In this document: one piece after another, positions 9,001 to 31,004 of the stretch | How positions within the stretch are numbered: the stretch's first letter is position 1 | Layout of the letters: every line of letters starts with the position of its first letter | NCBI GenBank assembly: GCA_945890645.1 | Contig: CAMDCV010000038.1 | Coordinates: 1-39,862 of the forward strand | Length of the DNA stretch: 39,862 nucleotides | From: Akkermansia muciniphila | Lineage (GTDB): Bacteria; Verrucomicrobiota; Verrucomicrobiia; Verrucomicrobiales; Akkermansiaceae | Direction: 5' to 3' | Made by a program: the position numbers and the translations under genes | The notes under the pieces: model-generated | Seen by the model: only the letters and a program-made list of their open reading frames with translations | What the model was told of the DNA's origin: nothing | Databases searched by the model: none

Positions 9001-9542
9001 AGCGCGAGGGCATTGAGGTGGTCGGGGATATCGGCGTTTTCAAAGCCTCTCTCTTCGATGAGTCGGCAGCCCTGCTCGAAGATCGCCTTTGATTTCGGGC
9101 AATCGTAGGGAGCGGTAGCGCTGTAGGCGCCGAGGACTTGCAGTTTGAGTTCGACCGAGGATGTTTTGCCTTCGCGCCAGATGGTGAGAGGAAGGATGCC
9201 GGTTTTCTCTTCCGCCGCAGCGATGGCGTGACCAAAGCTGCGACGCGCATCGTCGGCGAATGGCTTGCCAAAGACGCCGAGGATCACATCGTTCACTTGC
9301 AGAATGCCATCGGCGGGAGATCCTTTGTCCACGGCGGTGATGATGATTTGCCGGGACGCGGCAGTGAGGTCCTCGTGGCGGAAATACATCCATCCGCGCA
9401 GGCCCGTGGGGCCGAGGAGCCAATCGTGCGATCCATCGGACTTGCCGCCGGTGGTGAAATCTGGGATCGGCGGGCTATCGGCTGCTTTCACTGGCGAAAG
9501 GAAGCCGCCTAAAAGCAAGGCGATGAGGAAGGTGTGTTTCAT
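6009..9542 (-). CDS. exported PDZ / DUF6288-like / HEAT-repeat / SASA esterase fusion protein
   Basis: A 1177-residue exported protein with a signal peptide at residues 1-20 (AL-rich, cleaved after VKA). Residues about 47-130 form a PDZ-like fold (GLRGWMYFRH, then KGSPADGILQVNDVILGV). The next ~330 residues resemble the DUF6288 family of Verrucomicrobia and contain Trp/Gly/His-rich alpha-helical stretches such as GHCGNFWNMLWAI. Residues about 480-590 are HEAT-like repeats (RYGAVEALGRLG, LAAEALTRLG). From about residue 808 there is a sialate O-acetylesterase-like SASA domain with the nucleophile motif GQSNM (Ser819), WGGRSLHTDFRPP, a QGFND block and the C-terminal GGYHYLG block that supplies the likely catalytic His. 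The gene starts 30 bases behind the stand-alone SASA gene and is probably co-transcribed with it. The first 800 residues match the architecture of the gene at 27241-29637. The likely role is deacetylation of acetylated glycans outside the cytoplasm; the substrate is unknown. Confidence 0.85.
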   Translation of the reverse strand: MKHTFLIALLLGGFLSPVKAADSPPIPDFTTGGKSDGSHDWLLGPTGLRGWMYFRHEDLTAASRQIIITAVDKGSPADGILQVNDVILGVFGKPFADDARRSFGHAIAAAEEKTGILPLTIWREGKTSSVELKLQVLGAYSATAPYDCPKSKAIFEQGCRLIEERGFENADIPDHLNALALLASGDKKHHSTLGKYAKKVEESVQNEDTWNWYIAYGNLFLSEYALATEKKSALSELKLVTMRGVKNQCMNGMWGHAPALANGHSEGYGGMNVIGLPMTISFVLAREAGVSDPALDKAIEKSATFLRYYVDKGAIPYGDHPPWGNAHDDNGKSSCAAVLFDVLGDHEATAFNSKMATAAYDHREQGHCGNFWNMLWAIPGASRSGPHATGAYLKEQAWYYDLSRNWKGAFVYQQIEAGDENNNYNDWDLTGGYLLSFGLYQKSLHILGKKPSVAPALSPDEVKPVIVAGRDRYPEGERNGYYKRHDEELLDGLKSWSPAMRYQSAEAIGKRGGNFAPALLEMLTGNDRYARYGAVEALGRLGKNGTSALPSLRAALKDPDSWLQCLAAEALTRLGDKESATELLAISLQTTPADPRRMHQRATSRALFSPYPGNSEPVSLLSDSLEGVDRKQLLTVMKSFLENDDSVVRAAVIPALRKLSDRDLAPLLPTLANAVQTLAPTNEMWGDDIRQGGLDILTQRHIREGMLLCVSSIEWRWGLELQPRMNYLLRYGKSAREMLPALKKLGRDLQKREEGQEPSNNQKILIKAIADIEASTDEPKLITLKDYIAKQTAQETTSSTSKPGAQGKPLKVYILAGQSNMQGHAAISTFDSMAADRKTAPLLKEMLGADGKPKVCDKVWISSIGCLGDAYSDLTEKTGKLTAGFGAPDDKIGPEFTFGIFMEKLGDPVLIIKTAWGGRSLHTDFRPPGSGPYVWSDFELGKFKERGDDIEKSKAEKIEATGVYYRAMMEHVKKVLGDIKRVVPEYDEKQGYELAGFVWFQGFNDLVSDWTYEKGDQPGGYDLYSTLLAQLIRDVRKDLAAPKLPFVIGVMGIDGEKVDKTPGTQKHFREAQKNVATLPEFKGNVMAVPTAPFWDDELQELQERMEAAWPEVDAKVAEEKDDSQENKMKHMAKKFTTAEWKRLKGVSNGGYHYLGAAKILAPIGKAFAEATHNLGKK

Positions 9543-9572: not shown

Positions 9573-10820
9573 CTACTTTTTCATCATCTTGAGGTTCGCT
9601 TCCGCGAAGTGCTTGCCCATCAAGGCGAAGGTTTTGGCGCAGCCGAGGTAATGGTAGCCGGCATTAGAGGCACCACGTTTCCAGAGTGCTTGATCGGCGG
9701 GGGAGATCAGATCTGCTTCGTATTTCTTCAGGTATTCCTTCTTCTGCTCGTCAGTCATTTTGCCGTCGGCATTCGCATGGTCTTTGTGATTCGAATTCAG
9801 GAAATGGTTCATTTGACTTAGTTGGGCGCGTTTGGCATCGATGGCACCGAGTTCGTCCGCCCAAAATGGAGCTGTCTGCACAGCGAGGACGTTGCCCTTG
9901 AACGCAGGCATCTCTGCTGGTGCTGCCATGGCTTGGCGGAATGCGACCATGCTGGTGGATTGGTCCTTGAGTCCGCCGACGCCCATGACGCCGATGACGA
10001 ATGGCATTTTAGGGGCGTTCAGATCCTTACGGACATCGCGGATGAAGTGACCTAACAGTTCTGAATATAGGGCAAAGCGATCGGGTTTGTTGTGACCCGG
10101 GTAAACTTGACCATCGACCATGTCGTTGAAGCCTTGGAGCCACGCGAATCCGGCGATCTCGTAACCCTGCGCGGGATCATAATCCGGCATGACCTGTTTC
10201 GGATCGGCCAGAACCTTTTTCACATGCTCCGTCATCAGGCGATAATATACCCCCGTGGCCGCGATCTTTTCGGCATTCCATTTCGGTCGATCCTCGGCCT
10301 TGGGAATCCCGTGGGCGCCCTGAGGATGCTTGTCCCAAACTTCCTGGGTCTCCTTTGGCATCACGTAGGGCCCAGCGCTCGGCGGGCGGAAATCGGTGTG
10401 CAGGCTCTTGCCGCCCCACGCCGCCTTGATGATGAGCACCGGCTCATCGAAAGCCTTGTCCATCGCGAGACCGAAGGTGAATTCCGGGCCGATCTTGTCG
10501 CCGGGCTTGGTAGGCTCCATTCCCCACATCGAGCCGTAGCCTGCGGTGAGTTTGCCGTTGAGGGTGAAGTTTTTATCATACGCACCCGTGAGATAGGAAA
10601 TCCACACTCCGTCGCAGGTGGTGGGTTTGCCATCGGCACCGCGCATCATTTTGAGCAACGGCGCGGTCGCGGGATCATCGCCGATGTAGTCAAAGGTGCT
10701 GACATTCGCGGGACCCTCCATGTTCGACTGCCCGGCGAGGATGAAGACTTTGAGAGGTTTGGCTTCCACGCCAATGACGGTGACAAGCAAGATTGTGAAA
10801 ATTGAGGCGATAAATTTCAT
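9573..10820 (-). CDS. exported sialate O-acetylesterase-like (SASA) hydrolase
   Basis: A 415-residue protein with a signal peptide at residues 1-20 (MKFIASIFTILLVTVIGVEA). The mature enzyme begins almost at once with the SGNH-type nucleophile block ILAGQSNMEG, Ser32 being the predicted nucleophile. It continues with IGPEFTFG, AAWGGKSLHTDFRPP, a block with LQGFNDM (Gly/Asn oxyanion site) and a C-terminal NAGYHYLGCAK containing the expected catalytic His. The family (PF03629, SASA) removes O-acetyl groups from sugars. It is closely similar to the C-terminal domain of the downstream fusion protein, so one probably arose from the other by duplication. It is the first gene of the minus-strand pair. 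Its promoter must lie between 10821 and leader I on the opposite strand. Confidence 0.88.
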   Translation of the reverse strand: MKFIASIFTILLVTVIGVEAKPLKVFILAGQSNMEGPANVSTFDYIGDDPATAPLLKMMRGADGKPTTCDGVWISYLTGAYDKNFTLNGKLTAGYGSMWGMEPTKPGDKIGPEFTFGLAMDKAFDEPVLIIKAAWGGKSLHTDFRPPSAGPYVMPKETQEVWDKHPQGAHGIPKAEDRPKWNAEKIAATGVYYRLMTEHVKKVLADPKQVMPDYDPAQGYEIAGFAWLQGFNDMVDGQVYPGHNKPDRFALYSELLGHFIRDVRKDLNAPKMPFVIGVMGVGGLKDQSTSMVAFRQAMAAPAEMPAFKGNVLAVQTAPFWADELGAIDAKRAQLSQMNHFLNSNHKDHANADGKMTDEQKKEYLKKYEADLISPADQALWKRGASNAGYHYLGCAKTFALMGKHFAEANLKMMKK

Positions 10821-10988
10821 GGGATGCTGTAGTTTTTATCATCATGAGACTGAGGATAGCAGAAGGCAAGGAGGATCTCGATCCTATGAGCCAAATTTGA
10901 TGTTCGATTCTTAGTGATATCAGAAAAGGAATTGCCCTCTGAATCCCGCACCCCAATCGCACCTGATATACACACTCAATGCAAAAAA

Positions 10989-11077
10989 TTTCTTGTAATA
11001 TCGAGGTTTTTTGGGTCTTGTTCATGTGTAGCAAAAACTTGATATAACACGCAAAGTGGCTATGAATAAAAACTGTT
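10989..11077 (+). repeat. cassette-module leader, copy A (attI-like or array-start repeat)
   Basis: This stretch is repeated without gaps at 22789-22877 (I counted 9 mismatches in the 87 bases from 10991) and in more diverged form at 29878-29963. Weaker similarity extends upstream: all three copies are preceded by CCTGATAT about 20-50 bases before and by AAGGAARTGCC before that, so the element may begin near 10919. Similarity ends abruptly at the GTT of the box GTTAGGC (11075-11081), after which the copies differ completely. An inner imperfect palindrome pairs TATCGAGGTTTTTT with AAAAACTTGATA. The position and the sharp right boundary fit an integron attachment site or the common start of cassette arrays. 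No integrase gene is next to it. Confidence 0.7.
11039..11066 (+). promoter_or_regulatory. promoter-like signal in leader A
   Basis: TTGATA (11039-11044) and TATGAA (11061-11066) are separated by 16 bases. The same arrangement is kept in leader B (TTGATA and TACAAA at 22839 and 22861) and leader C (CTGATA and TACTAA at 29924 and 29946). It would read into the cassette genes, like the Pc promoter of integrons. This is a pattern match supported only by conservation among the three copies. Confidence 0.5.
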
Positions 11078-11110
11078 AGGCAAGAAATTTAATATACGAC
11101 ATAACGCAAC

Positions 11111-11469: not shown

Positions 11470-11596
11470 GCCTAACAAGCCGCGCCACGCAACCGCTAGT
11501 AGCCGTTCTGTTGAGATGATTTCCTGTAACTACAACCCCAAATCCGTGAGTGACTTCCGCCGCCGCTACTAGCGGTGCGTGCGCTCTACATTCGCT
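11470..11596 (+). repeat. attC-like imperfect palindrome I-1
   Basis: The left box GCCTAAC (11470-11476) is a perfect match to the attC R'' consensus RYYYAAC and is followed by AAG. The right box is ATTCGCT (11590-11596), a poor match to GTTRRRY. The inner arms pair well: ACCGCTAGTAGC (11492-11503) with GCTACTAGCGGT, then CACGC with GCGTG. The left arm carries two extra unpaired bases, the kind of asymmetry integrases use to choose the strand. Total length is 127 bp. It is clearly related to the element at 30277-30405: both share CCTAACAAG, GCAACCGC, TAGCCG, ACCCCAA and GCGTGC in order. Confidence 0.65.
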
Positions 11597-11604
11597 AAAT
11601 TTAC

Positions 11605-12327
11605 ATGAAGTTTTCATACAACGACCATTCTCGTAAGAGCGTCAAGCTGATGCTCTGTTTTGTCTTCATGCTCCTTTCTTGCAATGCCGCTACATTGAAG
11701 GTTCTAGTGCCTACTGAAACTGCCATAGGTTTCCCCCATTTCGGCATCGTGCCTCTTGATCAATTCGATGAAATAATCACAGCCCCGCTGAGTGCGTCAG
11801 ACGCTGTTTCTGGAGCAGATGCTTATTGGGTAATTCTCATCGCCGGAGGTGGCGCAACCGCTCCTTTTTATACAAATGATGAGCTGAATTCTCTCTCGTC
11901 AATCCTAAGTTCCAGCGCTCCTGCTGTCATTTTTTTTGAATGGCTGGCTTGGCGAAACTCAAGCCAACAGCTCGCTGGGTTACTTGGCTCAACTTATCTA
12001 GAGTCTGGTCTGCCTGCAGAGGCTGCTCCACAGGGCGATAGTCTTTTGGTTAGGGATATTTCAACCCCCTTATTATTTAGCACGCCTGGAGGATTGTCTG
12101 GTGCGGTAACTCCTGTGTTTGGAGATGTGGTGACCCTAGCAGGACCCAATCAGAATGTCGCACTTATTGGTGACACAACGACTTTTACATCATTCAATCC
12201 CAGTAATCGCCAGTTTGCCGAAAATTTAGGAGATTTTCTGGCCATTCCAGAGCCAACGACGATTTCATTACTTTTGGTGGCTTTGTCTTGCCTATCGCTT
12301 GCTCGTCAACGTAGAGAAACTAACTAA
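11605..12327 (+). CDS. PEP-CTERM surface protein in a cassette
   Basis: A 240-residue exported protein. An N-terminal hydrophobic segment (LMLCFVFMLLSCNA, residues about 16-29) acts as the signal peptide; a second in-frame ATG at residue 16 would also be a suitable start. The middle resembles an alpha/beta fold with repeated Ser/Ala patches (NSLSSILSSSAPAVIFFEWL). The C-terminus is a complete PEP-CTERM sorting signal: the PEP motif in IPEPTTISLLLVALSC, a hydrophobic helix and a basic tail (ARQRRE). Such proteins are processed by an exosortase in bacteria that make exopolysaccharide. The gene lies between two attC-like palindromes, 8 bases behind the right box of the first and 4 bases before the left box of the second. 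Confidence 0.82.
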   Translation: MKFSYNDHSRKSVKLMLCFVFMLLSCNAATLKVLVPTETAIGFPHFGIVPLDQFDEIITAPLSASDAVSGADAYWVILIAGGGATAPFYTNDELNSLSSILSSSAPAVIFFEWLAWRNSSQQLAGLLGSTYLESGLPAEAAPQGDSLLVRDISTPLLFSTPGGLSGAVTPVFGDVVTLAGPNQNVALIGDTTTFTSFNPSNRQFAENLGDFLAIPEPTTISLLLVALSCLSLARQRRETN

Positions 12328-12331
12328 TCGC

Positions 12332-12452
12332 TTCGAACAAGATATCTATCTCAACATCGGCCACTGCATATTCAAGCTGCCATGTCCATTCAACCTTCAA
12401 ACTACAAACGAGGCCTCGCCCTGGTCAGGGGAAATAGGCCTCGCAATTCTGC
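12332..12452 (+). repeat. attC-like imperfect palindrome I-2
   Basis: The left box is TTCGAAC (12332-12338) followed by AAG, as in the other elements; the right box is ATTCTGC (12446-12452). Between them is a perfect 8-base inverted repeat CGAGGCCT (12409-12416) / AGGCCTCG (12436-12443) with an inner CCCTG/CAGGG pair. No T-run follows the stem, so it is not a factor-independent terminator. The boxes fit the family only loosely; placement between two cassette genes is the main support. Confidence 0.45.
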
Positions 12453-12458
12453 GAAAAT

Positions 12459-12848
12459 ATGAATACTACCATCGGCACTTCCACGGTTAAGCGCATCAGT
12501 CCCATGTTGGCGGTGGCCGATATGGACCAAACACTCGACTTCTACACGAGCCAGCTTGGATTTTCCGTGACCATGAAATCCCCCGAGTATTCCATCGTAG
12601 AGCGAGATGGAGCGACGATCCACTTCATGAAGGCTGCTGACGAGAGCGTGATGGCTGCCGTGCGAGGGCACACGGGAATTTATATCGAGGTAGATGATAT
12701 CCAGTCACTCTGGGAACAGGTCGATGCCCAGAGGGGATCCCACAAGATTCGCGATCTATTCGATCAGCCCTATGGCATGACAGAATTCCACATGGAAGAC
12801 CCCAATGAGTGTCTTGTTTTCGTGGGTCAACCGACAAAACAAAAATAG
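12459..12848 (+). CDS. VOC-superfamily (glyoxalase/bleomycin-resistance-like) protein
   Basis: A 129-residue protein of the vicinal oxygen chelate superfamily, matching the usual single-domain length. The N-terminal beta-alpha-beta module contains SPMLAVADMDQTLDFYTSQL and GFSVTMKSPEYSIVERDGA, and the second module contains GIYIEVDDIQSLWEQVD and ends with MTEFHMEDPNECLVFVG. This is the usual glyoxalase/dioxygenase-like pattern; the C-terminal Glu is a likely metal ligand. Members bind or inactivate small molecules such as bleomycin-type antibiotics or act as isomerases; the substrate cannot be told. The ATG lies 6 bases after the right box of palindrome I-2 and the stop abuts the left box of I-3. 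VOC genes are common integron cargo. Confidence 0.88.
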   Translation: MNTTIGTSTVKRISPMLAVADMDQTLDFYTSQLGFSVTMKSPEYSIVERDGATIHFMKAADESVMAAVRGHTGIYIEVDDIQSLWEQVDAQRGSHKIRDLFDQPYGMTEFHMEDPNECLVFVGQPTKQK

Positions 12849-12937
12849 CGCGAACCAGCCGGCACATGCCATGGCGGGCAATGTCTCAATTTGCATTCAG
12901 GCTTTCCACTCCGTCGCGGATGAGTTAGTAGTTCCTC
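12849..12937 (+). repeat. attC-like imperfect palindrome I-3 (88-89 bp family)
   Basis: The left box is CGCGAAC (12849-12855) and the right box GTTCCTC (12931-12937), five bases before the ATG of the next gene. The core aligns with the elements at 23176-23264 and 23809-23896 in module II: GGCGGG, TTTG.ATTC.GGCTT, CC, GGATGAG, TAG occur in the same order and spacing. Its own palindrome is degraded compared with those two, which suggests an older or inactive site. The match to a family in another module is the strongest evidence. Confidence 0.5.
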
Positions 12938-22625: not shown

Positions 22626-22788
22626 TCCATAAAGGCAAAAATTGCTGCCATTCCCTGCTTTTTACAATCGCTAACTCATTCCATCGTTATTTATATTAGA
22701 TAAGGAAGTGCCACCCAAAACGCCGCGTTGAAAACTGCCTGATATCTTATCGCGTGAGGCGTCGCCTTTTTACGCGACACCTCAAAAC

Positions 22789-22877
22789 TTTCTTGTAAGA
22801 TCGAGGTTTTTTCGGTTTTGTTCATGCGTAGCAAGAACTTGATATAACACGCCAAGTGGCTACAAATAAAATCTGTT
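22789..22877 (+). repeat. cassette-module leader, copy B
   Basis: This is the ungapped copy of 10989-11077, offset by exactly 11,800 bases. It contains TTGATA (22839-22844), 16 bases, TACAAA (22861-22866), and ends at the GTT of GTTCTGC (22875-22881). Upstream, similarity to the other leaders resumes at CCTGATAT (about 22738) and AAGGAAGTGCC (about 22703). In this copy a hairpin TGAGGCGTCGC / GCGACACCTCA lies between these blocks. Downstream of GTT it shares nothing with copy A. Confidence 0.7.
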
Positions 22878-22893
22878 CTGCATTAACTTCCAG

Positions 22894-23208
22894 ATGACGC
22901 TATCCACCTACAGTAGTATCGGAATCGCGCTTTGCTGGCTGGGTTTCGTCGCGATTGCCACATCGATCTTTCTCTTCCTCGCATCGAGCAGAGGCATTTC
23001 GATCGGCGATCCAGATGGAATTCATCTGCACAATACGTATTTCATTTTATTCAGTTGGGGTCATCGTACGATCCTGTTATTTCCTCTGGTTGCCGGGATT
23101 CTGCTAATCTTCACAGGACTTCAGGCTCGTAAGCAGGCCACGACAATGAGCGCAGAATTACAACGAATCCAAGAAGAAGAACAAGCTGGCTCATCCAACG
23201 GCGGGTAA
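22894..23208 (+). CDS. small membrane protein, first gene of cassette module II
   Basis: A 104-residue protein with two predicted membrane helices (IGIALCWLGFVAIATSIFLF, residues 9-28, and ILLFPLVAGILLIFTG, about 60-75). An extracytoplasmic loop contains GIHLHNTYF, and the charged C-terminal tail (RIQEEEQAGSSNGG) is encoded partly by the attC-like palindrome: the stop TAA at 23206-23208 lies inside its left arm. The ATG is 12 bases behind the GTTCTGC box of leader B. No family is recognised. The overlap of the gene end with the recombination-like site is typical of integron cassettes. Confidence 0.7.
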   Translation: MTLSTYSSIGIALCWLGFVAIATSIFLFLASSRGISIGDPDGIHLHNTYFILFSWGHRTILLFPLVAGILLIFTGLQARKQATTMSAELQRIQEEEQAGSSNGG

Positions 23209-23264
23209 CGCTCCTGTTTGAATTCAGGCTTCCTTACCCGCCGTGGATGGCCTAGACGTAGTGC
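23176..23264 (+). repeat. attC-like imperfect palindrome II-1 (88-89 bp family)
   Basis: The left box is GAAGAAC (23176-23182) followed by AAG; the right box is GTAGTGC (23258-23264). The arms CATCCAACGGCGGGTAA (23192-23208) and TTACCCGCCGTGGATG pair over 16 bases with a single extra A in the left arm. The centre has TTTGAATTCAGGCTT. It aligns along its whole length with II-2 and I-3. Confidence 0.65.
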
Positions 23265-23277
23265 TGAAAACCAATTC

Positions 23278-23817
23278 ATGAAACTAAGCATCCTCGTAGC
23301 CGTAGTAATTCGTCTATTCGCAATTTATTGGTCTGTCACTTGTGTGTTGGGTTTCCTTAGCGGTATTGGCATCGTGAGCATGATGTTTCCGAGTAAGAAT
23401 CCTGACGTCTTGCAAGCCGCCATACAGTTTATAATTCCCATCGTATACGGCACGATGGCCCTCTTGGCGTGGATCTTCGCCGGCACAATTAGTCTTCGAG
23501 TAGTGGGTCAAAACGATCCGAAGTTGCAGTTCAATGAAGTATCGGCAGAGAACTTATACACACTGGGAATCCTCGGTTTCGGGCTTTACTATGCAATAGG
23601 CCACTTGGCAGACACCCTTAATTGGATTCACTATTTGATTCTGAATCGTGCCGGACAAGCGCTCGTGAATCAAGAGGGCGGACTATCGCTGTATGATGTG
23701 ACATCAAAGATGATTCCCTGCGTGGCCGGAGCTGCTCTCGCGATACTCTCTCCGAAAATTGCGAAGAGGCTTGTCTCCGCCGGATTGGCGCGGAAGATCG
23801 ATGAAGAAGCAGAATAA
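23278..23817 (+). CDS. multi-spanning membrane protein of unknown function
   Basis: A 179-residue protein with about four hydrophobic segments: residues about 1-33 (VAVVIRLFAIYWSVTCVLGF), 45-70 (FIIPIVYGTMALLAWIFAGT), a segment with LGILGFGLYYAIGHL and one with GAALAILSPKIA. It ends in a charged tail (LARKIDEEAE). I do not recognise a family, although short membrane proteins of this type are frequent cassette cargo. The frame is open 20 codons further upstream, but that part is the attC-like element, so the ATG at 23278, 13 bases behind the right box, is preferred. The stop TAA forms part of the left box GCAGAAT of the next palindrome. Confidence 0.72.
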   Translation: MKLSILVAVVIRLFAIYWSVTCVLGFLSGIGIVSMMFPSKNPDVLQAAIQFIIPIVYGTMALLAWIFAGTISLRVVGQNDPKLQFNEVSAENLYTLGILGFGLYYAIGHLADTLNWIHYLILNRAGQALVNQEGGLSLYDVTSKMIPCVAGAALAILSPKIAKRLVSAGLARKIDEEAE

Positions 23818-23896
23818 GCTAGCTTATCCAACGGCGGGTAGCGTCCAGTTTGAATTCGGACTTCCCTCCCCGCCATGGATGAGCTAGAGGTTCGGC
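23809..23896 (+). repeat. attC-like imperfect palindrome II-2 (88-89 bp family)
   Basis: The left box is GCAGAAT (23809-23815) followed by AAG, nearly the exact complement of the GTTCTGC right boxes found elsewhere; its own right box is GTTCGGC (23890-23896). The arms TTATCCAACGGCGGG and CCCGCCATGGATGAG pair imperfectly. The left half reads GGCGGGTA as in II-1, with TTTGAATTCGGACTT in the middle. Confidence 0.62.
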
Positions 23897-23907
23897 AAAG
23901 AAAAAGC

Positions 23908-24477
23908 ATGAATCGATTTACCATCAGAAGATACTCGAGAGACGATGTTGATGCGATCTACGCAGCAGCTGATGAATCGCGTGAACATGTTGCTCGGTGG
24001 ATGGGTTGGATGACTCCAGAATATTCTAAAAAAGATGCCGAGGAATGGGTGTCACATGCGACGTCATCTTGGCAGAATGAGGCGAGCTACGAACACGTAA
24101 TTGTTGATGCTGCAACGCAGAAAGTGATAGGATCATGTGGACTCAATCACCTCAACAAGATCGATTTGGTCTGCAATCTCGGATATTGGGTATCTCGTAG
24201 CTACCTTGGGAGAGGTGCCGCTGTAGATGCTGTGCTTGCTCTTAAAGAGTTTGCATTTGATTCACTTGGATATGCGCGACTGGAAATTGTCGTCGCGGAA
24301 TCGAATCACGCAAGTTATCGTGTAGCCGAGAAGTCCGGAGCTGTCCATGAAGGAATCCATCGTGCGCGGCTGCGTATTCAAGGTCTGTCCCATCCCGCCC
24401 ATATTTTCGCTCTCATAAATCCAAAAGCCGAACAAGCCAGCACTGGGAAACTCGCTGCCCACACCGAGACGAAATGA
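23908..24477 (+). CDS. GNAT-family N-acetyltransferase (RimJ/RimL-like)
   Basis: A 189-residue acetyltransferase of normal length. The N-terminal strand-helix unit (FTIRRYSRDDVDAIYAAADE) and the acetyl-CoA-binding motif A (WVSRSYLGRGAAVDAVLALK), then motif B (LEIVVAESNHASYRVAEKSG, AVHEG), are all recognisable. RimJ/RimL-like members acetylate protein N-termini or small molecules including antibiotics; the target cannot be told. The frame is open upstream, but the ATG at 23908, 11 bases behind the right box of palindrome II-2, gives the standard N-terminus. It is the last gene of module II. Acetyltransferases are classical integron cargo. Confidence 0.88.
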   Translation: MNRFTIRRYSRDDVDAIYAAADESREHVARWMGWMTPEYSKKDAEEWVSHATSSWQNEASYEHVIVDAATQKVIGSCGLNHLNKIDLVCNLGYWVSRSYLGRGAAVDAVLALKEFAFDSLGYARLEIVVAESNHASYRVAEKSGAVHEGIHRARLRIQGLSHPAHIFALINPKAEQASTGKLAAHTETK

Positions 24478-24486
24478 CCTTTTTGA

Positions 24487-24522
24487 CGACAACACTTACC
24501 CCTATTGCGGATAGGCGGGGTA
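24487..24522. other. possible decayed attC-like hairpin after module II
   Basis: Ten bases behind the GNAT stop is CGACAAC (24487-24493), a loose left-box match. It is followed by the inverted repeat TACCCC-TAT / ATA-GG-CGGGGTA (24497-24522). No right box is evident. It could be a worn terminal attC or a terminator without a T-run. Confidence 0.25.
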
Positions 24523-24665
24523 TAATGGAAACTGGGGAGATTGAAACAGGCGAGAAGCCCTTTTGCCGAGATCACCGCTTAGCGGGACAGACGCGCTGAG
24601 CTCCTGTCGTTCTTGAAAATTCAAGAGATTGCCAGCGGCGGAAAGGGTCGCTAGGCTAGCCGGGA

Positions 24666-27233
24666 ATGAAGAGCCAATCCAAATACGCGCGCACTCCGGT
24701 CAAACCCGTTGAGAAGGGTGGTGCGGTGATTGTATTGTTGGTGTTTGTTTCGGGCTTTGCGGGATTGGTCTATCAGGTGTTGTGGATGAAGCAGCTGGGG
24801 TTGTTGTTTGGCAGCACTTCGCAGGCGGCGGCGGCGACACTGGCGGCGTTTTTTGCAGGGCTGGGGGCGGGCAGTTGGTGGTGGGGGAAACGGGTTTCCA
24901 CGGTTGCGCGTCCGCTGCGCTTGTATGCGTGGTTGGAATTTGGCATCGCGATTTCTGCGCTGACTTACTTTGGGGTGTTGAAACTTTTTCATGCGATTTA
25001 TCCTTCGCTCTACGGATCGATTTCGGGGACGCACTGGATGTTAGTGGTGAAATTTGCGCTGGCTTTGTTGTTAGTGTTTCCGGCGGCGTTTTTCATGGGC
25101 GGCACAGTGCCCGCGATGGGACAAGCGGCGATCCGACAACCGGAACGCCTGGGCCGTACGGGGGCGCTACTGTATGGCGTCAATACCTTAGGCGCGGCGC
25201 TCGGGGTCGGGTTTGCGGCGTTTACGCTGATTCCTTCGTTGGGCTTTACGATGACGTATGTGGTTGCTTTGGTTTTTTCGTTAGGCGTCGGTGCCGTGGC
25301 TTGGCGTTTGCCGGCACCGGCAGAATTACCGAAGGCCGCTCTCGCAAAATCTAATCAAAAAGCTGATGCCGGGGTTTCACGCACGGAGAGCATCGCGGTG
25401 GCGGGGCTGTGTTTTATCTCGGGCTTCGTGATCCTTGCCTTAGAAGTGGTGTGGACGCGGATCTTTGCCCAGGTGCATGAAAACTCGGTGTATTCGTATG
25501 CGATCATTTTGATGGTGGTACTTGTGGGATTGGCGATCGGTGCGGGGATCAGCTCGCTGGTTTCCCGTTTTGTGAAAAACCCTTGGGCGGCACTGGGCGT
25601 CATGACATTGCTGGGCGGCGGTTTGTTAGTGTTAGGGCCATCGCTCTTGATGCATGTCACGCAGGGACTCAAGGCAGTGAGCACGGTGGAGCCTTGGGAC
25701 GATTATGTGAATGGACTTTTCCGCACAGGATTTCGGGGCGTGGGCATCGTGGTCATTGCGATGGGGACGGTGTTTCCTTTCCTGATGAAACTCGCGGAAC
25801 GCGGCGACGCCGCACCGGGCTGGAAGTTGGGTCGGCTTTTGGCCATCAACACGGCAGGTGCCATCGCGGGGGCTTTGCTTTGCGGATTCGTGATGCTGCC
25901 CGCGTGGGGGATGTGGGCCACGCTGCAGGTGTTAGCGTCGATTTATTTGATGGTGGGAATTTTACTGCCCATGGGTTGGGGGAAATTTGGCATCATCGTG
26001 CGAGTCATCGGCGTGGGATTTTTGATCTTAGCGTTCACGGCACTCAGTCCCCGTGGGCTACCCGTCGCGGGGAATTTGTTAGCCAATCATGATGGCAAAG
26101 TGTTGCAAGCGTGGGAGGAAAGTGATGGCACGGTGACGGTGATCGAGCGACCCAGTGGCCATCGCGTGATCAAGGTCAATGGTGGCTACGGCTTGGGATC
26201 GACCGAGGCGTATTGGGAGCAGGCGAATCAAGCGCGGATTCCGCTGTATCTTTTTCCAGAGACGGAGAGCATTTGTTTTATCGGACTGGGCACGGGCATT
26301 TCTGCAGGGGCGGCGCTCGATGAAACATTTCCGCAGGTGCGTCGCGTGCTGAGTTGTGAACTAATTCCCGCGGTGGTGGAGGCATCCAAGAAATGGATCC
26401 CCGCGGAGATGACCGGTGGCGTTTTTACTGATCCGCGCTCGACGATCTTGATCGAAGATGGCAGGCATTTGCTGCAAGCATCCGAGGAAAAATTTGACAT
26501 GATCAATGCCGACTTATTTCTCCCGTATCAACGCGGCGCGGGCAGTCTCTATAGCCTCGATCATTTCCGTGTGGTCGAGTCGCGTTTGAATGACGATGGC
26601 GTGTTCGTGCAATGGCTGCCCCTCTATCAGCTCACCGAATATGAATTCGGAGTAATCGCCCGTACGATGTTAGAAGTCTTCGGTGAAGTGACCCTGTGGC
26701 GTAACAATTTCCGACCTGGGCAAGAAAAAGTCGCGTTGATCGGCAGGCGCAAGTCATCACCATTCGCAGTGCCACCAACTGGCAAAAAAGACGCCATGCT
26801 CGCTGCCGTCGATGGCCTCACTTGGCATGTCAGCAATCCTGATATGTTCCGTGTCGCCGCCGAATCCATGCCGTTTCTCTACGCCGGAAATCTCACCGAA
26901 TGCAAAACTCTTTTCAATAGCTACCCCATCAATACCGATGACAGACCAGTCATCGAATATCAAACACCGAAAACCTTCCGCAAAGTGGCGGAACATGACA
27001 AAGTGATTTGGATGGTCGGCCCGCGATTGGTTGGATGGATTGATAGGCTGCTAGAAACCTGTCCACCAGAGAAAGATCCGGTGTGGGCGGGCCACCCGGA
27101 GTCGAGCCTGCATCTGGTCAGAGCGGGTGCGTCCTTTCACAGCGCCATGGTGGCGAAAGTGAAGGGCGACTACATCGCCGCCGAGACCGAATGGCAGATT
27201 TTCCTCAGCGAGTGGAGAGAGGGAGCGAAGTGA
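24666..27233 (+). CDS. fused membrane protein and spermidine-synthase-like protein
   Basis: An 855-residue protein. The first ~470 residues are a polytopic membrane domain with repeated hydrophobic segments (GGAVIVLLVFVSGFAGLVYQ, FFMGGTVPAMGQAA, SFRTGFRG-like loops and LLAINTAGAIAGALLCGFVM), as in the fused MFS/spermidine synthase proteins of many bacteria. From about residue 480 the spermidine synthase-like domain follows, with the S-adenosylmethionine-binding glycine motif CFIGLGTGISAGAAL, the acidic CELIPAVVEASKKW and the DGRHLL / DMINADLFLP segment. These proteins are often annotated as aminopropyltransferases, but whether they make polyamines is not established, and the usual polyamine-binding Asp pattern is not clear to me. 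It lies on the plus strand behind module II, convergent with the next gene with 7 bases between. Confidence 0.85.
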   Translation: MKSQSKYARTPVKPVEKGGAVIVLLVFVSGFAGLVYQVLWMKQLGLLFGSTSQAAAATLAAFFAGLGAGSWWWGKRVSTVARPLRLYAWLEFGIAISALTYFGVLKLFHAIYPSLYGSISGTHWMLVVKFALALLLVFPAAFFMGGTVPAMGQAAIRQPERLGRTGALLYGVNTLGAALGVGFAAFTLIPSLGFTMTYVVALVFSLGVGAVAWRLPAPAELPKAALAKSNQKADAGVSRTESIAVAGLCFISGFVILALEVVWTRIFAQVHENSVYSYAIILMVVLVGLAIGAGISSLVSRFVKNPWAALGVMTLLGGGLLVLGPSLLMHVTQGLKAVSTVEPWDDYVNGLFRTGFRGVGIVVIAMGTVFPFLMKLAERGDAAPGWKLGRLLAINTAGAIAGALLCGFVMLPAWGMWATLQVLASIYLMVGILLPMGWGKFGIIVRVIGVGFLILAFTALSPRGLPVAGNLLANHDGKVLQAWEESDGTVTVIERPSGHRVIKVNGGYGLGSTEAYWEQANQARIPLYLFPETESICFIGLGTGISAGAALDETFPQVRRVLSCELIPAVVEASKKWIPAEMTGGVFTDPRSTILIEDGRHLLQASEEKFDMINADLFLPYQRGAGSLYSLDHFRVVESRLNDDGVFVQWLPLYQLTEYEFGVIARTMLEVFGEVTLWRNNFRPGQEKVALIGRRKSSPFAVPPTGKKDAMLAAVDGLTWHVSNPDMFRVAAESMPFLYAGNLTECKTLFNSYPINTDDRPVIEYQTPKTFRKVAEHDKVIWMVGPRLVGWIDRLLETCPPEKDPVWAGHPESSLHLVRAGASFHSAMVAKVKGDYIAAETEWQIFLSEWREGAK

Positions 27234-27240
27234 TGGGCGG

Positions 27241-29637
27241 CTAGAGTCCTAACTTCACCAACTCGGGCTTTTCGGTCATGGCTTTGATTTCTTGGATCGT
27301 TTTGCGAACGGCGTCGGCTTTCTGCAGGCTGAGGCTTTTGGGGAAATCTTTTTCCTCGTTTTCGAAGTAATGGATCGCTTTCTCCAGTTGGGGGATGGCG
27401 CGTTGGGCATGCGCGCCGTAGCGCTTGAGCATATCGAGCAATCGTGGCACTGATTCTTGACTGCCGTGCGGTTTGACCAAGCGGACATAGTCAGCGAGCA
27501 GCTCGATCCCCTCACTGACGTGATGCTTGCTGAAGAGATCCAGCCCCGCGTATTGAATTTGGCCATCAAACATTTCGCCACTGGGTGACTTGTCTTTGAT
27601 CGCGGCGACGATGGTCGGCATCAGGGGCTTGAGTTGCTCAAAGGGGAGGTTTTGGTAAATCGAAGAAAAAGCACCTCTGGCGTGTCCATCCTCGTTGCGC
27701 AAACCAGCACGAACCACTTGAAACAAAAGTTCACGATCCACACCTTCCAGCGACCTACCGAGGATTCCGCTTCTCGTATTAAAGAGGATCTTCACGAGGT
27801 AGCGTTGTTCCATGCCGCGAGGGTCCTCGGCGGAGGGGCCCTTGGCGGCCATGCGCAGCATGTCGGGCACGGCGACCATCGCGGGTTTGCCAATCGCACT
27901 GAGTGCCTCGGCAGCTTTCACCCGCAACCACAGATGATCCGCCTGGAGGGTTTGATGGAGCTTAGGAATCGCGGGGGCGGCTCGGTCTTTAAACTGGGCC
28001 AGCGCCTCACACGCGCCAAGGCGTGCCTCGATCGACGGGTCATCCAGCAGGCGCAGCAAGGGCTCGATGGGCATTTTACGCCGCGCATAGGTGCTGCTGG
28101 CTCGCGCGCGAACGATAGGAGACCAACTGGTGAGCAACTCCAGCAAGTGATCGGGCGCCAAGTCATCGTAGGCAGTGAACGTGCCGTAGCCCGCAAACCC
28201 ACGACCATCGCGCACCACCTGCCGCGCCTTTGCCTGATCCAACGCCGTGAAGGTGGGCGCTTTGCTGCCAGTCAATCGGATCGCTTTCAAAGGCATGGCG
28301 TAGGCAATCAAATAAACCCCCGTGGCATCCCATTTGGCATAGGAATCATCGCGCGCTTGGGCTGGCCCTTGATGGGGAAACATCCCATCGGATTGGCGAG
28401 CCAGATCGAAATACCAACTGCCGAATTCCTCCATCCAGGCTCCCGTTGCCTGAGGTCCACCAAGTGCCACACTAGGCATCGCCCAAGTCATGTTGAAAAA
28501 ATTGCCGGTGTGTCCTTGATCGCGCTCGTTGCCATGCGAGGCGGTGCTCATTTTAGCGAAAAACTCGGCTCCTTCTTTTTCGCCGAGTTGATCGAAGAGA
28601 ACCGCACCCATGCCGCATTTACCGTTATCCTCATGACTTTGCATGAAAGGCTCGTGATCGCCGTACGGAATCGAACCCTTGCCGACAAAAAAGCGCAACA
28701 AGTTGCCGCTGCGCTTGATCGCGGTGGCCACTACGGGGTCATTCACTCCCGCCTCGCGTGCCAGCACCAAGCCCACGGTCAATACCACACCGGGCGAGTT
28801 CATCATACCGTAGCCGCTAAGCCTGCCGTCGGGTAGAGCAAATTTGTGCCCCCATGAACCAACGGCACTCTGGCCGGTGGAGGCTTCCACGGCGATGCGA
28901 CGCAGACCGGGCAAAACGGATTTGTCACCCGTTGCCAATACATACTCCGCGAGAAATACCGTGACATAGCCATACCACCAGGCTTGGTAGCCGCCTTCCG
29001 CATAGGCGGCCGCCCACTCGGCTTCTTTTTTGATCACGGGAAGGTATTTCGGATTCCCACTAGCCAAGAGCCCGAGCGCATTGAGTGAACGAGAAATCGC
29101 ATTCTCCTTGTAGCTTGGCTCTGCGATTCGCTTGGCAAGCACCTCACAACTCCGTTCGAGGATACGTTTTGATTTTTCGCAATCGTAGGGAGCGGTCGGG
29201 CTATAACTTCCAAGCACTGGCAGAGTGATGACGATCTCTTCCGTCTTTCCGGCGCGCCAACGGGTGAGAGCGAGTTTTCCGTCCTTGGCCTCAGCAGCAG
29301 TCAGCGCCTTGCCCATCTCCTGACGCGGATCATAAGAAAAGGATTTCCCCGCGACGCCCAGCAACACATCACCCACCGCTAACAAACCATCGCCAGGAGA
29401 ACCCTTTGTCACTTGGGTGATAGAGACCTGCCGTGCTTGAACAGTGGCGTTGTTCGACGTGTAGATCCAACCGCGAACACCCGTAGCTCCGAGGTTCCAG
29501 TCTTTCGGCGCTTCTTTCGGGATGGTTTCACCCTTGGTGAAATCCGGATTCGGCATGGGCTGCGGCGCGGCCTGGAGCGAAGCGCCAAGAAACAGCGGGA
29601 TCAAAAGGGCGAACGGAATAAATTTCATGGTAGTCAT
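27241..29637 (-). CDS. exported PDZ / DUF6288-like / HEAT-repeat protein
   Basis: A 798-residue exported protein, paralogue of the first 800 residues of the gene at 6009-9542. Signal peptide: residues about 4-23 (KFIPFALLIPLFLGASLQAA); an ATG three codons downstream (29628) is an alternative start. PDZ-like domain at about 50-140 (GVRGWIYTSNNATVQARQ, KGSPGDGLLAVGDVLLGVAG). The DUF6288-like region contains GHTGNFFNMTWAMPS, corresponding to GHCGNFWNMLWAI in the paralogue. HEAT-like repeats at about 500-620 (LGACEALAQFKD, RVKAAEALSAIG). It lacks the C-terminal SASA esterase domain. It is a single gene between the spermidine-synthase-like gene and module III. It shares a 41-nt 5'-leader element with the PSD1 gene. 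Confidence 0.82.
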   Translation of the reverse strand: MTTMKFIPFALLIPLFLGASLQAAPQPMPNPDFTKGETIPKEAPKDWNLGATGVRGWIYTSNNATVQARQVSITQVTKGSPGDGLLAVGDVLLGVAGKSFSYDPRQEMGKALTAAEAKDGKLALTRWRAGKTEEIVITLPVLGSYSPTAPYDCEKSKRILERSCEVLAKRIAEPSYKENAISRSLNALGLLASGNPKYLPVIKKEAEWAAAYAEGGYQAWWYGYVTVFLAEYVLATGDKSVLPGLRRIAVEASTGQSAVGSWGHKFALPDGRLSGYGMMNSPGVVLTVGLVLAREAGVNDPVVATAIKRSGNLLRFFVGKGSIPYGDHEPFMQSHEDNGKCGMGAVLFDQLGEKEGAEFFAKMSTASHGNERDQGHTGNFFNMTWAMPSVALGGPQATGAWMEEFGSWYFDLARQSDGMFPHQGPAQARDDSYAKWDATGVYLIAYAMPLKAIRLTGSKAPTFTALDQAKARQVVRDGRGFAGYGTFTAYDDLAPDHLLELLTSWSPIVRARASSTYARRKMPIEPLLRLLDDPSIEARLGACEALAQFKDRAAPAIPKLHQTLQADHLWLRVKAAEALSAIGKPAMVAVPDMLRMAAKGPSAEDPRGMEQRYLVKILFNTRSGILGRSLEGVDRELLFQVVRAGLRNEDGHARGAFSSIYQNLPFEQLKPLMPTIVAAIKDKSPSGEMFDGQIQYAGLDLFSKHHVSEGIELLADYVRLVKPHGSQESVPRLLDMLKRYGAHAQRAIPQLEKAIHYFENEEKDFPKSLSLQKADAVRKTIQEIKAMTEKPELVKLGL

Positions 29638-29644
29638 GGTAGCG

Positions 29645-29685
29645 GGAGGAAACGGCGGAGTGGGAGGCGGAAACCTTACGGGTGC
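29645..29685 (-). promoter_or_regulatory. shared 5'-leader element, copy 2
   Basis: This is the second copy of the element at 22487-22530. On the mRNA it runs GCACCCGTAAGGTTTCC ... GTTTCCTCC and ends 7 bases before the start at 29637. Compared with copy 1 it has three single-base gaps and few substitutions, and the two ends are identical. The two genes share no coding similarity, so common ancestry of the leader or common regulation is more likely than duplication of the genes. Confidence 0.5.
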
Positions 29686-29877
29686 AGAGGAAACAATCTA
29701 TCTGGTAAGACAATATTGCTGTTCCCATTTTGGGGCGACAAAGATTCAGAATCAACTAATTTCTCTGTGTTCCGTCTTTCTTATACCCGCCTCTTCTCTG
29801 TTAGTTCAGGAAGGAAAGTGCCCCTAACTCTCGTTGCTGAAAAAAACCCTGATATACGAACCCGCCTCAATATAATC

Positions 29878-29963
29878 CTTGCTAGAACTAAGAATTTTGA
29901 GTCTTCTTCAACTGTCGTGCCCACTGATATCACACTGCGGGAAACTACTAATAAGCAACTGTT
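29878..29963 (+). repeat. cassette-module leader, copy C (diverged)
   Basis: A more diverged copy of leaders A and B that keeps CTTG at the start, GTCTTCTTCA, TGATATCACAC, the promoter-like CTGATA-N16-TACTAA (29924-29951) and the end CAACTGTTAGG. The total from CTTG to GTT is 86 bases, as in copy A. Upstream it also keeps CCTGATATAC (about 29848) and AGGAAAGTGCC. The box GTTAGGT (29961-29967) fits the attC/attI core consensus GTTRRRY, and AGAAATT follows as in copy A. Confidence 0.6.
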
Positions 29964-29985
29964 AGGTGAGAAATTCAGTTCTGTA

Positions 29986-30282
29986 ATGATTAGCGCGTTT
30001 TCATTTTCTACATGGCTCATGCCTTGCCTCTTGATTGCGCTCGGTGCTGTGTGTGCGATAGGAAATTGGACATCACTCATTGGCGCCCTTAAGTCGAACA
30101 GCTCGACGTCATTTGCTCCGATAGTAGGAGGTTTAATGCTGTTTGCTGGATTATCTTTACTCCCGATTTCTATGCCTAGTTATATTCCCTACCTAGCGTT
30201 TATTATTGATTTTGGATGTATTCCTTGGGCGGTTTGGGTAATCTGTTGCCTGCTCTTTTCCAAGAAACGAGAAAACACCTAA
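29986..30282 (+). CDS. small membrane protein, first gene of cassette module III
   Basis: A 98-residue protein with three predicted membrane helices: about residues 8-26 (TWLMPCLLIALGAVCAIG), 41-60 (IVGGLMLFAGLSLLPISM) and 70-90 (FIIDFGCIPWAVWVICCLLF), ending in a basic tail (SKKRENT). No family is recognised. The frame is open far upstream through leader C, but ATG at 29986, 18 bases behind the GTTAGGT box, is the first that gives a protein without leader sequence. The stop codon TAA (30280-30282) is part of the ACCTAAC box of the following palindrome, as often seen in integron cassettes. Confidence 0.68.
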   Translation: MISAFSFSTWLMPCLLIALGAVCAIGNWTSLIGALKSNSSTSFAPIVGGLMLFAGLSLLPISMPSYIPYLAFIIDFGCIPWAVWVICCLLFSKKRENT

Positions 30283-30405
30283 CAAGACGAGACACAGCAA
30301 CCGCCACTAGCCGCCTTGTCGGCAACGTCTACCGTATCATGAACCCCAACTCCCGTCTCGACGTCCGCCCTCGCTATTGGCGGCGCGTGCTCTTTGACGT
30401 TCTGC
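30277..30405 (+). repeat. attC-like imperfect palindrome III-1
   Basis: The left box is ACCTAAC (30277-30283), a perfect RYYYAAC match, followed by AAG; the right box is GTTCTGC (30399-30405). Length 129 bp. The inner arms CCGCCACTAGC and GCTATTGGCGG pair with one mismatch and the left side has extra bases. It is homologous to palindrome I-1 (11470-11596) along most of its length. Confidence 0.62.
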
Positions 30406-30416
30406 CAGAAAAAGAC

Positions 30417-31004
30417 ATGCGCAGACGCATCAAGAGAATCTTCATTTGGCTGCTTATTGCGGGTCTTGCCTGGTGCGTCATTCTAGGAACCATCGTTTGG
30501 AGAAACGGAACGCATGACCGAGCGGCCAAGTCTGATTGTATCATCGTTCTTGGAGCAGCAGTTCAGGGGACTACAGCATCACCCGTATTTGAAGAGCGCA
30601 TTCGACACGGTATCAGTCTCTACGATTCCGGCTATGCTCCCAAGCTTCTGTTTACCGGAGGCATTGGCGACGGGCAGATTCATTCGGAGGCTAGCGTCGG
30701 GCGATCCGCTGCTATTCAGCATGGGATCCCTGCCGCGAATATTCTCGTTGAGGAGAAGTCGCGAACGACTCAACAGAACCTCTCAGAAGCACTTGCCGTG
30801 ATGAGGCAGCATGGGATTAAGTCCGCAATTATTGTGAGTGACCCACTGCACATGAAGCGATCGATGATGATGGCGGATGACTTGGATATTGCTGCTGTTT
30901 CGTCACCAACGCCAACATCCCGATACCGATCACTCAAGACGCAGCTTGGCTTCCTACTTCGTGAGATCTATTTCATCCATCACTATTCCGCCACCGGACA
31001 CTGA
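30417..31004 (+). CDS. DUF218 (YdcF/SanA-like) membrane-anchored protein
   Basis: A 195-residue protein. A basic start (MRRRIKRIF) and one membrane helix (IWLLIAGLAWCVILGTIVW, residues about 9-27) precede a DUF218 domain: DCIIVLGAAV, then EERIRHGISLYDSGYAPKLL, FTGGIGDG, EKSRTTQQNLSEA and SAIIVSDPLHMKRS. These motifs match the YdcF/SanA/ElyC family linked to envelope integrity and vancomycin tolerance in enterobacteria; the function here is unknown. The frame is open 67 codons upstream, but that region is the attC-like element III-1, so the ATG at 30417, 11 bases behind the right box, is chosen. It is the last gene of module III and no attC-like element follows. Confidence 0.87.
   Translation: MRRRIKRIFIWLLIAGLAWCVILGTIVWRNGTHDRAAKSDCIIVLGAAVQGTTASPVFEERIRHGISLYDSGYAPKLLFTGGIGDGQIHSEASVGRSAAIQHGIPAANILVEEKSRTTQQNLSEALAVMRQHGIKSAIIVSDPLHMKRSMMMADDLDIAAVSSPTPTSRYRSLKTQLGFLLREIYFIHHYSATGH

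Follow-up and report, generated by a model that had tools for sequence, protein, structure and literature searches.

Integron integrases (IntI) recombine the folded bottom strand of an attC site with an attI site at G/TT, the slash marking the crossover. Core requirements are reportedly relaxed (Frumerie and colleagues, 2010), and attG sites, the genomic secondary sites studied by Loot and colleagues (2024), are said to have only a short core in common. The published consensus of the two attC boxes is RYYYAAC and GTTRRRY (PMC12901181), and IntI1 is described as requiring only GNT (PMC10127599). Arrays of attC without a nearby intI, known as clusters of attC sites lacking integron-integrases (CALIN), occur several per genome in Xanthomonas (PMC12444791; reviewed in PMC8618304), and the Delta-attI-type cassettes of class 1 and class 2 integrons carry attI pieces, mostly of 14-18 nt (244 nt in one type), downstream of the cassette open reading frame (ORF) (PMC12901181). 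Here we describe three cassette arrays in 39,862 nt of Akkermansia muciniphila DNA (contig CAMDCV010000038.1; the window), which is the whole of contig C38 of a 3.82-Mb genome in 66 contigs (97.55% complete). The arrays A, B and C lie at 10.9-13.5, 22.7-24.5 and 29.8-31.0 kb on the forward strand, have no intI in the window, and each start with a copy of a ~170-bp element.

With sedentary chromosomal integrons, the system described below shares attC hairpins with compensatory changes, an attI divergent from intI, a palindromic LexA-like box before intI, and cassettes. It differs from them in a core that reads GTTCKSY instead of GTTRRRY, in an IntI with a ~100-aa predicted helical N-terminus, and in combining numerous attI with no more than a single intI match in each genome of the genus. 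Like attG sites, the arrays place cassettes at non-integron loci, but here ~170 bp are conserved, against a reportedly short attG core. The arrays also resemble CALIN in holding attC without a nearby intI (two model-supported attC in each of arrays A and B, one in array C). However, each begins with a recognisable attI, which the usual CALIN description lacks, and they therefore look like integrons without intI rather than off-target cassette insertions. Delta-attI-type cassettes likewise carry attI sequence away from intI (PMC12901181), whereas here the ~170-bp copies precede arrays at separate loci. Taken together, the boxes in the window are very probably the attI and attC core sites of integrons in a verrucomicrobium, with a lineage core GTT(C>A>G)(G/T)(G/C)(C/T) and with arrays at orphan attI. 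Literature searches, in which subscription journals were mostly outside coverage, returned no title on attC or attI of this lineage.

Three models were used to delimit the sites. R1 is a sequence-only model of the element, built from ten copies in the same genome including the three of the window. The covariance models R2 (26 attC sites, of which 24 belong to relatives and the other 2 to further contigs of this genome) and R3 (13 attC sites from relatives; alignment A6) contain no site from the window. The following sites were recognised; R'' and R' are the left and right outer boxes, and E-values of R2 and R3 marked as window values, or unmarked, were computed for the window alone and not for the whole genome.

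10914..11081, forward strand: putative attI copy A (orphan), core GTTAGGC at 11075-11081; R1 match
11470..11596, forward strand: attC of cassette A1, R'' GCCTAAC (complements the attI A core exactly), R' ATTCGCT; R2 E 2.2e-25; bottom-strand hairpin
12332..12452, forward strand: weak or decayed attC candidate of cassette A2, R'' TTCGAAC, R' ATTCTGC; R2 E 0.12
12849..12937, forward strand: decayed attC of cassette A3, R'' CGCGAAC, R' GTTCCTC; R3 E 6e-4 (window), 0.06 (genome)
22690..22881, forward strand: putative attI copy B (orphan), core GTTCTGC at 22875-22881, ~28-nt palindromic insert at ~22749-22777; R1 match
23176..23264, forward strand: attC of cassette B1, R'' GAAGAAC, R' GTAGTGC; R3 E 1.3e-13, R2 E 7.7e-10; hairpin
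23809..23896, forward strand: attC of cassette B2, R'' GCAGAAT, R' GTTCGGC; R3 E 2.2e-6 (window), 2e-4 (genome); hairpin
24427..24456, forward strand: possible left half of an attC ending cassette B3, R'' GCCGAAC (complements GTTCGGC at 23890 exactly), right half unrecognisable; R2 weak, E 0.16
29800..29967, forward strand: putative attI copy C (orphan), core GTTAGGT at 29961-29967; R1 match
30277..30405, forward strand: attC of cassette C1, R'' ACCTAAC (complements the attI C core exactly), R' GTTCTGC; R2 E 1.1e-22; hairpin

Core letters of the attC sites

The 26 aligned attC sites of R2 have 14 consensus pairs, of which 13 show compensatory changes, and two unpaired columns (16 and 24) in the left arm, so that both the paired arms and the extrahelical positions of an attC hairpin are present; the window sites fit R2 and R3. 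In the whole genome, R2 and R3 give 22 matches each at E <= 0.1, together 29 distinct places, two of them members of R2. Among the 28 sites that remain after omission of one partial match, R'' ends in AAC in 25 and R' starts with GTT in 18; the letter after GTT is C in 16 of these 18, and none reads GTTRRRY. Searches for attC by hairpin alone were dropped as not discriminating, and an Rfam search gave no match at gathering thresholds.

To obtain a box logo across related genomes, we scanned 152 sources (151 loci and the window) for AAC and GTT, the only letters fixed, at a spacing of 38-150 nt and with a stem score no lower than 24. In the 385 kb around attI copies, the scan gave 41 matches, some of them non-attC, compared to 2 after one shuffle per stretch; a reverse-complement scan is invalid as a control, because AAC..GTT is its own reverse complement. 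Once AA behind AAC was required and exact duplicates were removed, 53 of the 152 sources contributed 135 distinct sites, nearly all from Verrucomicrobiota. The score threshold leaves all window sites out of this set. The 135 sites were not curated by hand, and at least one (in L203, present in alignment A5 and left out of A6) looks false; a few come from outside the family, namely from L249 (Opitutaceae) and L250 (Rhodocyclaceae), where position 4 is A. Since the scan itself fixes the AAC and GTT ends, these are not independent evidence within the 135 sites.

At R' position 4, C occurs in 90 sites, A in 25, G in 19 and T in 1. Position 5 is G in 83, T in 45, A in 6 and C in 1 (K in 128 of 135), position 6 is G in 65, C in 57, A in 7 and T in 6 (S in 122), and position 7 is C in 92, T in 36, A in 4 and G in 3 (Y in 128). 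GTTNKSY describes 114 of the 135 sites and GTTRRRY 10. The published RYYYAAC/GTTRRRY, which is a consensus of letters and not a functional definition, is matched by both boxes in none and by either box in 18. For comparison, the letter after GTT in background sequence is C in 31%, T in 31%, G in 28% and A in 10%. When sites were grouped into 83 clusters (~80% identity, boxes excluded), C stood at position 4 in 52 clusters and RRRY followed in 5 (p 2e-9 against background C after GTT). A single array, L154, supplies 23 of the 135 sites; without it, C is at position 4 in 73 of 112, and per locus C is found in at least half of the sites at 38 of 53 loci. These counts support a lineage-specific core GTT(C>A>G)(G/T)(G/C)(C/T) in place of GTTRRRY.

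The sequence-only reading of the window had proposed that boxes such as GTTCTGC mark a different core, to be discarded if a logo from related genomes were to show no conservation beyond TT. The letters on which it relied are all present (GTTCTGC at 22875 and 30399, ATTCTGC at 12446, GTTCGGC at 23890, GCAGAAT at 23809, GTTAGGC at 11075 and GCCTAAC at 11470), and across the 135 sites and 83 clusters, positions 4-7 are conserved and differ from RRRY, which bears out a different core as a feature of the lineage. As bare 7-mers these boxes are not rare on the forward strand of the window (GTTCTGC 3 times, ATTCTGC 3, GTTCGGC 7, GCAGAAT 6), and it is their position that is non-random. Four had been called right boxes: those at 30399 and 23890 are indeed R' boxes of attC sites matched by R2 or R3, but the one at 22875 is an attI core, and the one at 12446 ends a weak candidate (E 0.12). 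GCAGAAT at 23809, noted as nearly complementary to GTTCTGC, proved to be the R'' of the same attC as 23890, and its partner is the start of its own cassette, GTAGTGC at 23258 (3 of 4 letters), not the box at 22875.

Pairing of cassette starts with their own R''

The complementarity between left and right boxes is accounted for by a pairing rule. According to the proposed mechanism, a cassette would carry along the six letters after the crossover (G/TTNNNN), which in the excised circle would meet the R'' of the cassette's own attC and pair with it; the core could then vary between cassettes yet stay self-complementary. In 81 pairs of neighbouring sites, the cassette start matched its own R'' at 4 of 4 letters in 54, at 3 in 7, at 2 in 11, at 1 in 6 and at none in 3. 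Random pairing gives 4 of 4 in 6%, and the R'' and R' of one integrated site agree in 10 of 135. The core letters are therefore cassette-borne. The match validates 54 distinct cassettes (13 from L154; 182-1188 bp long), in which position 4 is C in 38, A in 10 and G in 6; three read GTTRRRY.

The rule extends to the element that precedes the arrays. The attI core matches the first attC at 4 of 4 letters in 14 of the 21 loci in which an attC was found, and an exact 7-letter complement of the core lies 100-2500 bp downstream in 21 of 46 copies, where at most ~7 are expected (2400/4^7 per locus). The seven readable junctions of the window, judged by eye, comprise three exact ones (11075/11470, 29961/30277 and 23890/24427), two with 3 of 4 letters (22875/23176 and 23258/23809), one with 2 of 4 (11590/12332) and one with 1 of 4 (12446/12849).

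The ~170-bp element and the integrases of the family

The element ends in CTGTT followed by four variable letters. In the genome of the window, ten copies were found by BLAST and reading of the matched regions, and R1 gives 12 matches at E <= 1e-5 and 14 at E <= 0.01; the copies are scattered. All ten genomes of the genus have R1 matches (2-23 each at E <= 0.01, the weakest of which may be chance), and in all ten there are matches away from intI. In the family, 15 of 78 genomes searched, from 6 of 16 genera, have matches at E <= 1e-5. A scan for related loci gave 545 confirmed matches, and the best 80 of them consist of 79 titled as Verrucomicrobiota and 1 as Rhodocyclaceae; this list is ranked by similarity to the query, so that the spread across phyla cannot be read from it.

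Integrases were sought with TIGR02249 at E <= 1e-60. Of the 195 genomes searched in the family, 64 have matches, 62 of them above the curated cut-off; in the genus, 4 of the 10 genomes do (G033, G042, G059 and G080). The IntI of the genus score above the cut-off and contain a segment at about residues 320-350 that aligns with IntI1 and that we take to be the part specific to IntI. In all four genomes, one copy of the element is placed upstream of intI in divergent orientation, with 433-486 bp between it and the end of the IntI match, and has a G/TT core at the first cassette. An exact TGTTC-N4-GAACA palindrome stands between core and intI in all four, 228-271 bp before the core. This is reportedly the LexA motif of Verrucomicrobia (Erill et al. 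2016). It is also exact before the orphan copies L128 and L133, and one letter off before L138. In another genus (G069), element and intI have the same arrangement, 449 bp apart. Given this position relative to intI in four of four genomes, with the box in between, we take the ~170-bp element to be the attI of the lineage; the window copies would be attI by shared sequence and core, without an intI. Like the attC boxes, the 46 attI cores recognised in the genus favour C at position 4 (C 30, A 8, G 8).

The open frame of the genus IntI is 428-444 aa from stop to stop and includes a conserved N-terminal stretch of ~100 aa, predicted to be helical, before the SAM-like and catalytic domains. An AlphaFold model (mean predicted local distance difference test score, pLDDT, 71.6; predicted template modelling score, pTM, 0.47) was used only for the helical N-terminus. 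This stretch has several invariant Trp and no Pfam match (L078, L079, L080 and L081; alignments A2/A3). The same core letters are found with the divergent or shorter IntI of L154 and L162, so that extension and core are unlikely to be linked in a simple way. Between two and four IntI matches at E <= 1e-60, fragments among them, are listed for 25 of the 64 matching family genomes; several integrons per genome look common in the family. One further attI-like match (G048:C1:1281019-1281188, E 1.8e-6) comes from another genus, from a genome that consists of one contig; it is far from the three IntI matches of that genome and is a possible orphan.

Seven of 37 inspected attI copies, from several species, contain a ~28-nt palindrome (ATCGCGTGAGGC..GCCTTTTACGCGA), which begins 134-142 nt before the attI match ends. 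The bearers are the window copy at ~22749-22777, contigs C49 and C25 of the same genome, C7 and C57 of G010, C19 of G088 and C31 of G051. It resembles a repetitive extragenic palindrome (REP) or a miniature inverted-repeat transposable element (MITE) inserted at a single spot in attI. In the genome of the window (G000), the attI copies on contigs C49, C40, C57, C11 and C39 lie near contig ends, as if the assembly broke in repetitive arrays, and the array content of this genome is probably under-counted.

Orphan attI copies and alternative explanations

The dispersed attI copies are the less expected result of this analysis. The local recombinase of which the sequence-only reading had spoken is not found here: no IntI above the cut-off is found in the assembly, in which the two strongest matches look like XerC/D-type recombinases, and no intI remnant at E <= 0.01 is present around the 12 attI copies of this genome (at least about 1 kb upstream covered). 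The window arrays thus lack the intI in cis of a complete integron. Of 38 orphan loci in relatives, 5 have intI remnants (L128, L133, L138, L142 and a weak one of 27 residues in L139) and 33 have none, so that some orphans are decayed integrons; an intI-like match in L044 (39 residues, E 0.5-1) was not counted.

Two pairs of loci bear on the history of the orphans. An orphan locus common to G023 and G042 is 86% identical in DNA from the gene on the left through attI to ~10 bp past the core. Beyond this point, 5.8 and 5.2 kb differ apart from three matching stretches, 77-128 bp long and including at least one attC, until the flank resumes at 83%. Neither species has an intI remnant there, and their arrays differ, so that the common ancestor was probably already orphan at this locus. 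The different cassettes at this one orphan attI of two species suggest use of the site in trans. In the second pair (G051 and G088), an 85% match over attI is followed by ~550 bp without match, in which no attC was recognised, before the flanks resume. An empty or ancestral form of the G023/G042 site was sought in seven other genomes, but the left neighbour gene was not found in the fetched stretches and the search was uninformative. G080 has the two genes that flank array A but not the array itself, and they are ~146 bp apart there compared to ~2835 bp here; the exact borders of the insertion could not be placed, as the intergenic DNA is too diverged.

The lineage keeps G/TT and the pairing rule and has other letters at positions 4-6, and an IntI encoded elsewhere, now or formerly, would recombine the orphan attI in trans. 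A bolder reading, which we hold with a little less than even confidence, is a distributed integron of the Akkermansiaceae, in which one SOS-inducible, N-terminally extended IntI would serve up to a dozen or more attI scattered over the chromosome, each having a small array of its own, with a core shifted from GTTRRRY to GTTCKSY. Several points weigh against the explanation given here for the boxes and arrays. Since no intI is present in the assembly and no remnant beside the 12 copies, present activity in this genome is doubtful. The case for use in trans comes from two locus pairs, of which the first has arrays and the second a ~550-bp insert without recognised attC. In the genome of the window, 10 of 28 sites have an R' that does not start with GTT, and several window sites are decayed (12332-12452, 12849-12937, and GTAGTGC at 23258). 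The logo is blind to sites without AAC, GTT or the AA after AAC, all of which the scan fixes. Among neighbouring sites, 27 of 81 pairs are not 4 of 4, and 7 of 21 pairs of attI and first attC fail; some of these failures will be missed intermediate sites. The class 1 plasmid control is small, with four distinct sites, all GTTRRRY, after the identical filter; at looser settings, C is at position 4 in 2 of 14 and 1 of 18 box pairs, some of them non-attC. Finally, 7 of 20 intI regions from other genera (L152, L153, L160, L164, L165, L166 and L169) have no attC that passes the filter. These seven regions may be empty platforms, short contigs or hosts of another kind of attC.

Could the GTTC letters simply be GTTRRRY sites that decayed by mutation after loss of the integrase? 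No intI is found in the genome, and ATTCTGC, GTAGTGC and GTTCCTC in the window look decayed, so that this is possible for single window boxes; as a general account it is very improbable. Arrays beside an open intI in relatives (e.g., L154, L163 and L171) carry the same letters, T is at position 4 in 1 of 135 sites compared to 31% in the background after GTT, and the letters remain complementary to the R'' of the same cassette. A more substantial objection, though one that we still consider unlikely to hold, is that the letters are shared through descent of the attC and cassette pool, or through base composition, and carry no information on what the integrase recognises. The attC of the lineage do resemble one another, and the same letters go with different IntI types, long ones as well as the divergent or shorter ones of L154 and L162. 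Shared descent has to contend with C at position 4 in 52 of 83 clusters (p 2e-9), and composition alone, given the background after GTT, neither removes T nor favours K at position 5. The IntI of the lineage may thus recognise or even prefer the GTTC core, as the sequence-only reading suggested, with inheritance of the letters within the cassette pool as the alternative; IntI1, for its part, is described as requiring only GNT (PMC10127599).

The orphan copies themselves might be inert relics of complete integrons, with cassettes loaded while intI was in cis. The remnants at 5 of 38 loci of relatives favour this explanation, but the G023/G042 locus has no remnants, and its arrays differ from about the attI core onwards while flank and attI are 86% identical; for the orphans in general we regard it as rather doubtful. 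It is scarcely credible that the ~170-bp element is not attI but belongs to some other mobile element, as its dispersed promoter or leader. The palindromic insert in 7 of 37 inspected copies indicates that the element can host other elements; however, it ends in a mostly G/TT core at a cassette start, and it adjoins and diverges from intI in four of four genus cases and lies near intI in G069 as well.

With a core outside GTTRRRY throughout the lineage, the integrons of a whole bacterial family escape searches that use the literal consensus, and the lineage offers a natural pair of integrase and core for asking what role positions 4-7 of the R box play. If the dispersed attI are what we propose, many small, separate platforms would replace one platform with a long array, and a single integrase could place cassettes for expression in many different parts of the chromosome.

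Four cassettes of the window have ORFs with at least a trace of family resemblance:

11605..12327, forward strand: ORF of cassette A2, PEP-CTERM match below the curated cut-off (18.2 vs 20.7 bits)
12459..12848, forward strand: ORF of cassette A3, glyoxalase/VOC family (Pfam PF00903, E 3e-11)
23875..24477, forward strand: ORF of cassette B3, GNAT acetyltransferase (Pfam PF13302, E 1e-28)
30216..31004, forward strand: ORF of cassette C2, DUF218 family (Pfam PF02698, E 1e-28)

The open frame of cassette C2 begins inside the previous cassette, and its true start is probably downstream of 30405. Outside the arrays, the adjoining minus-strand genes at 6009-9542 and 9573-10820 have stretches with 73-77% DNA identity, which indicates that they are related, perhaps through tandem duplication.

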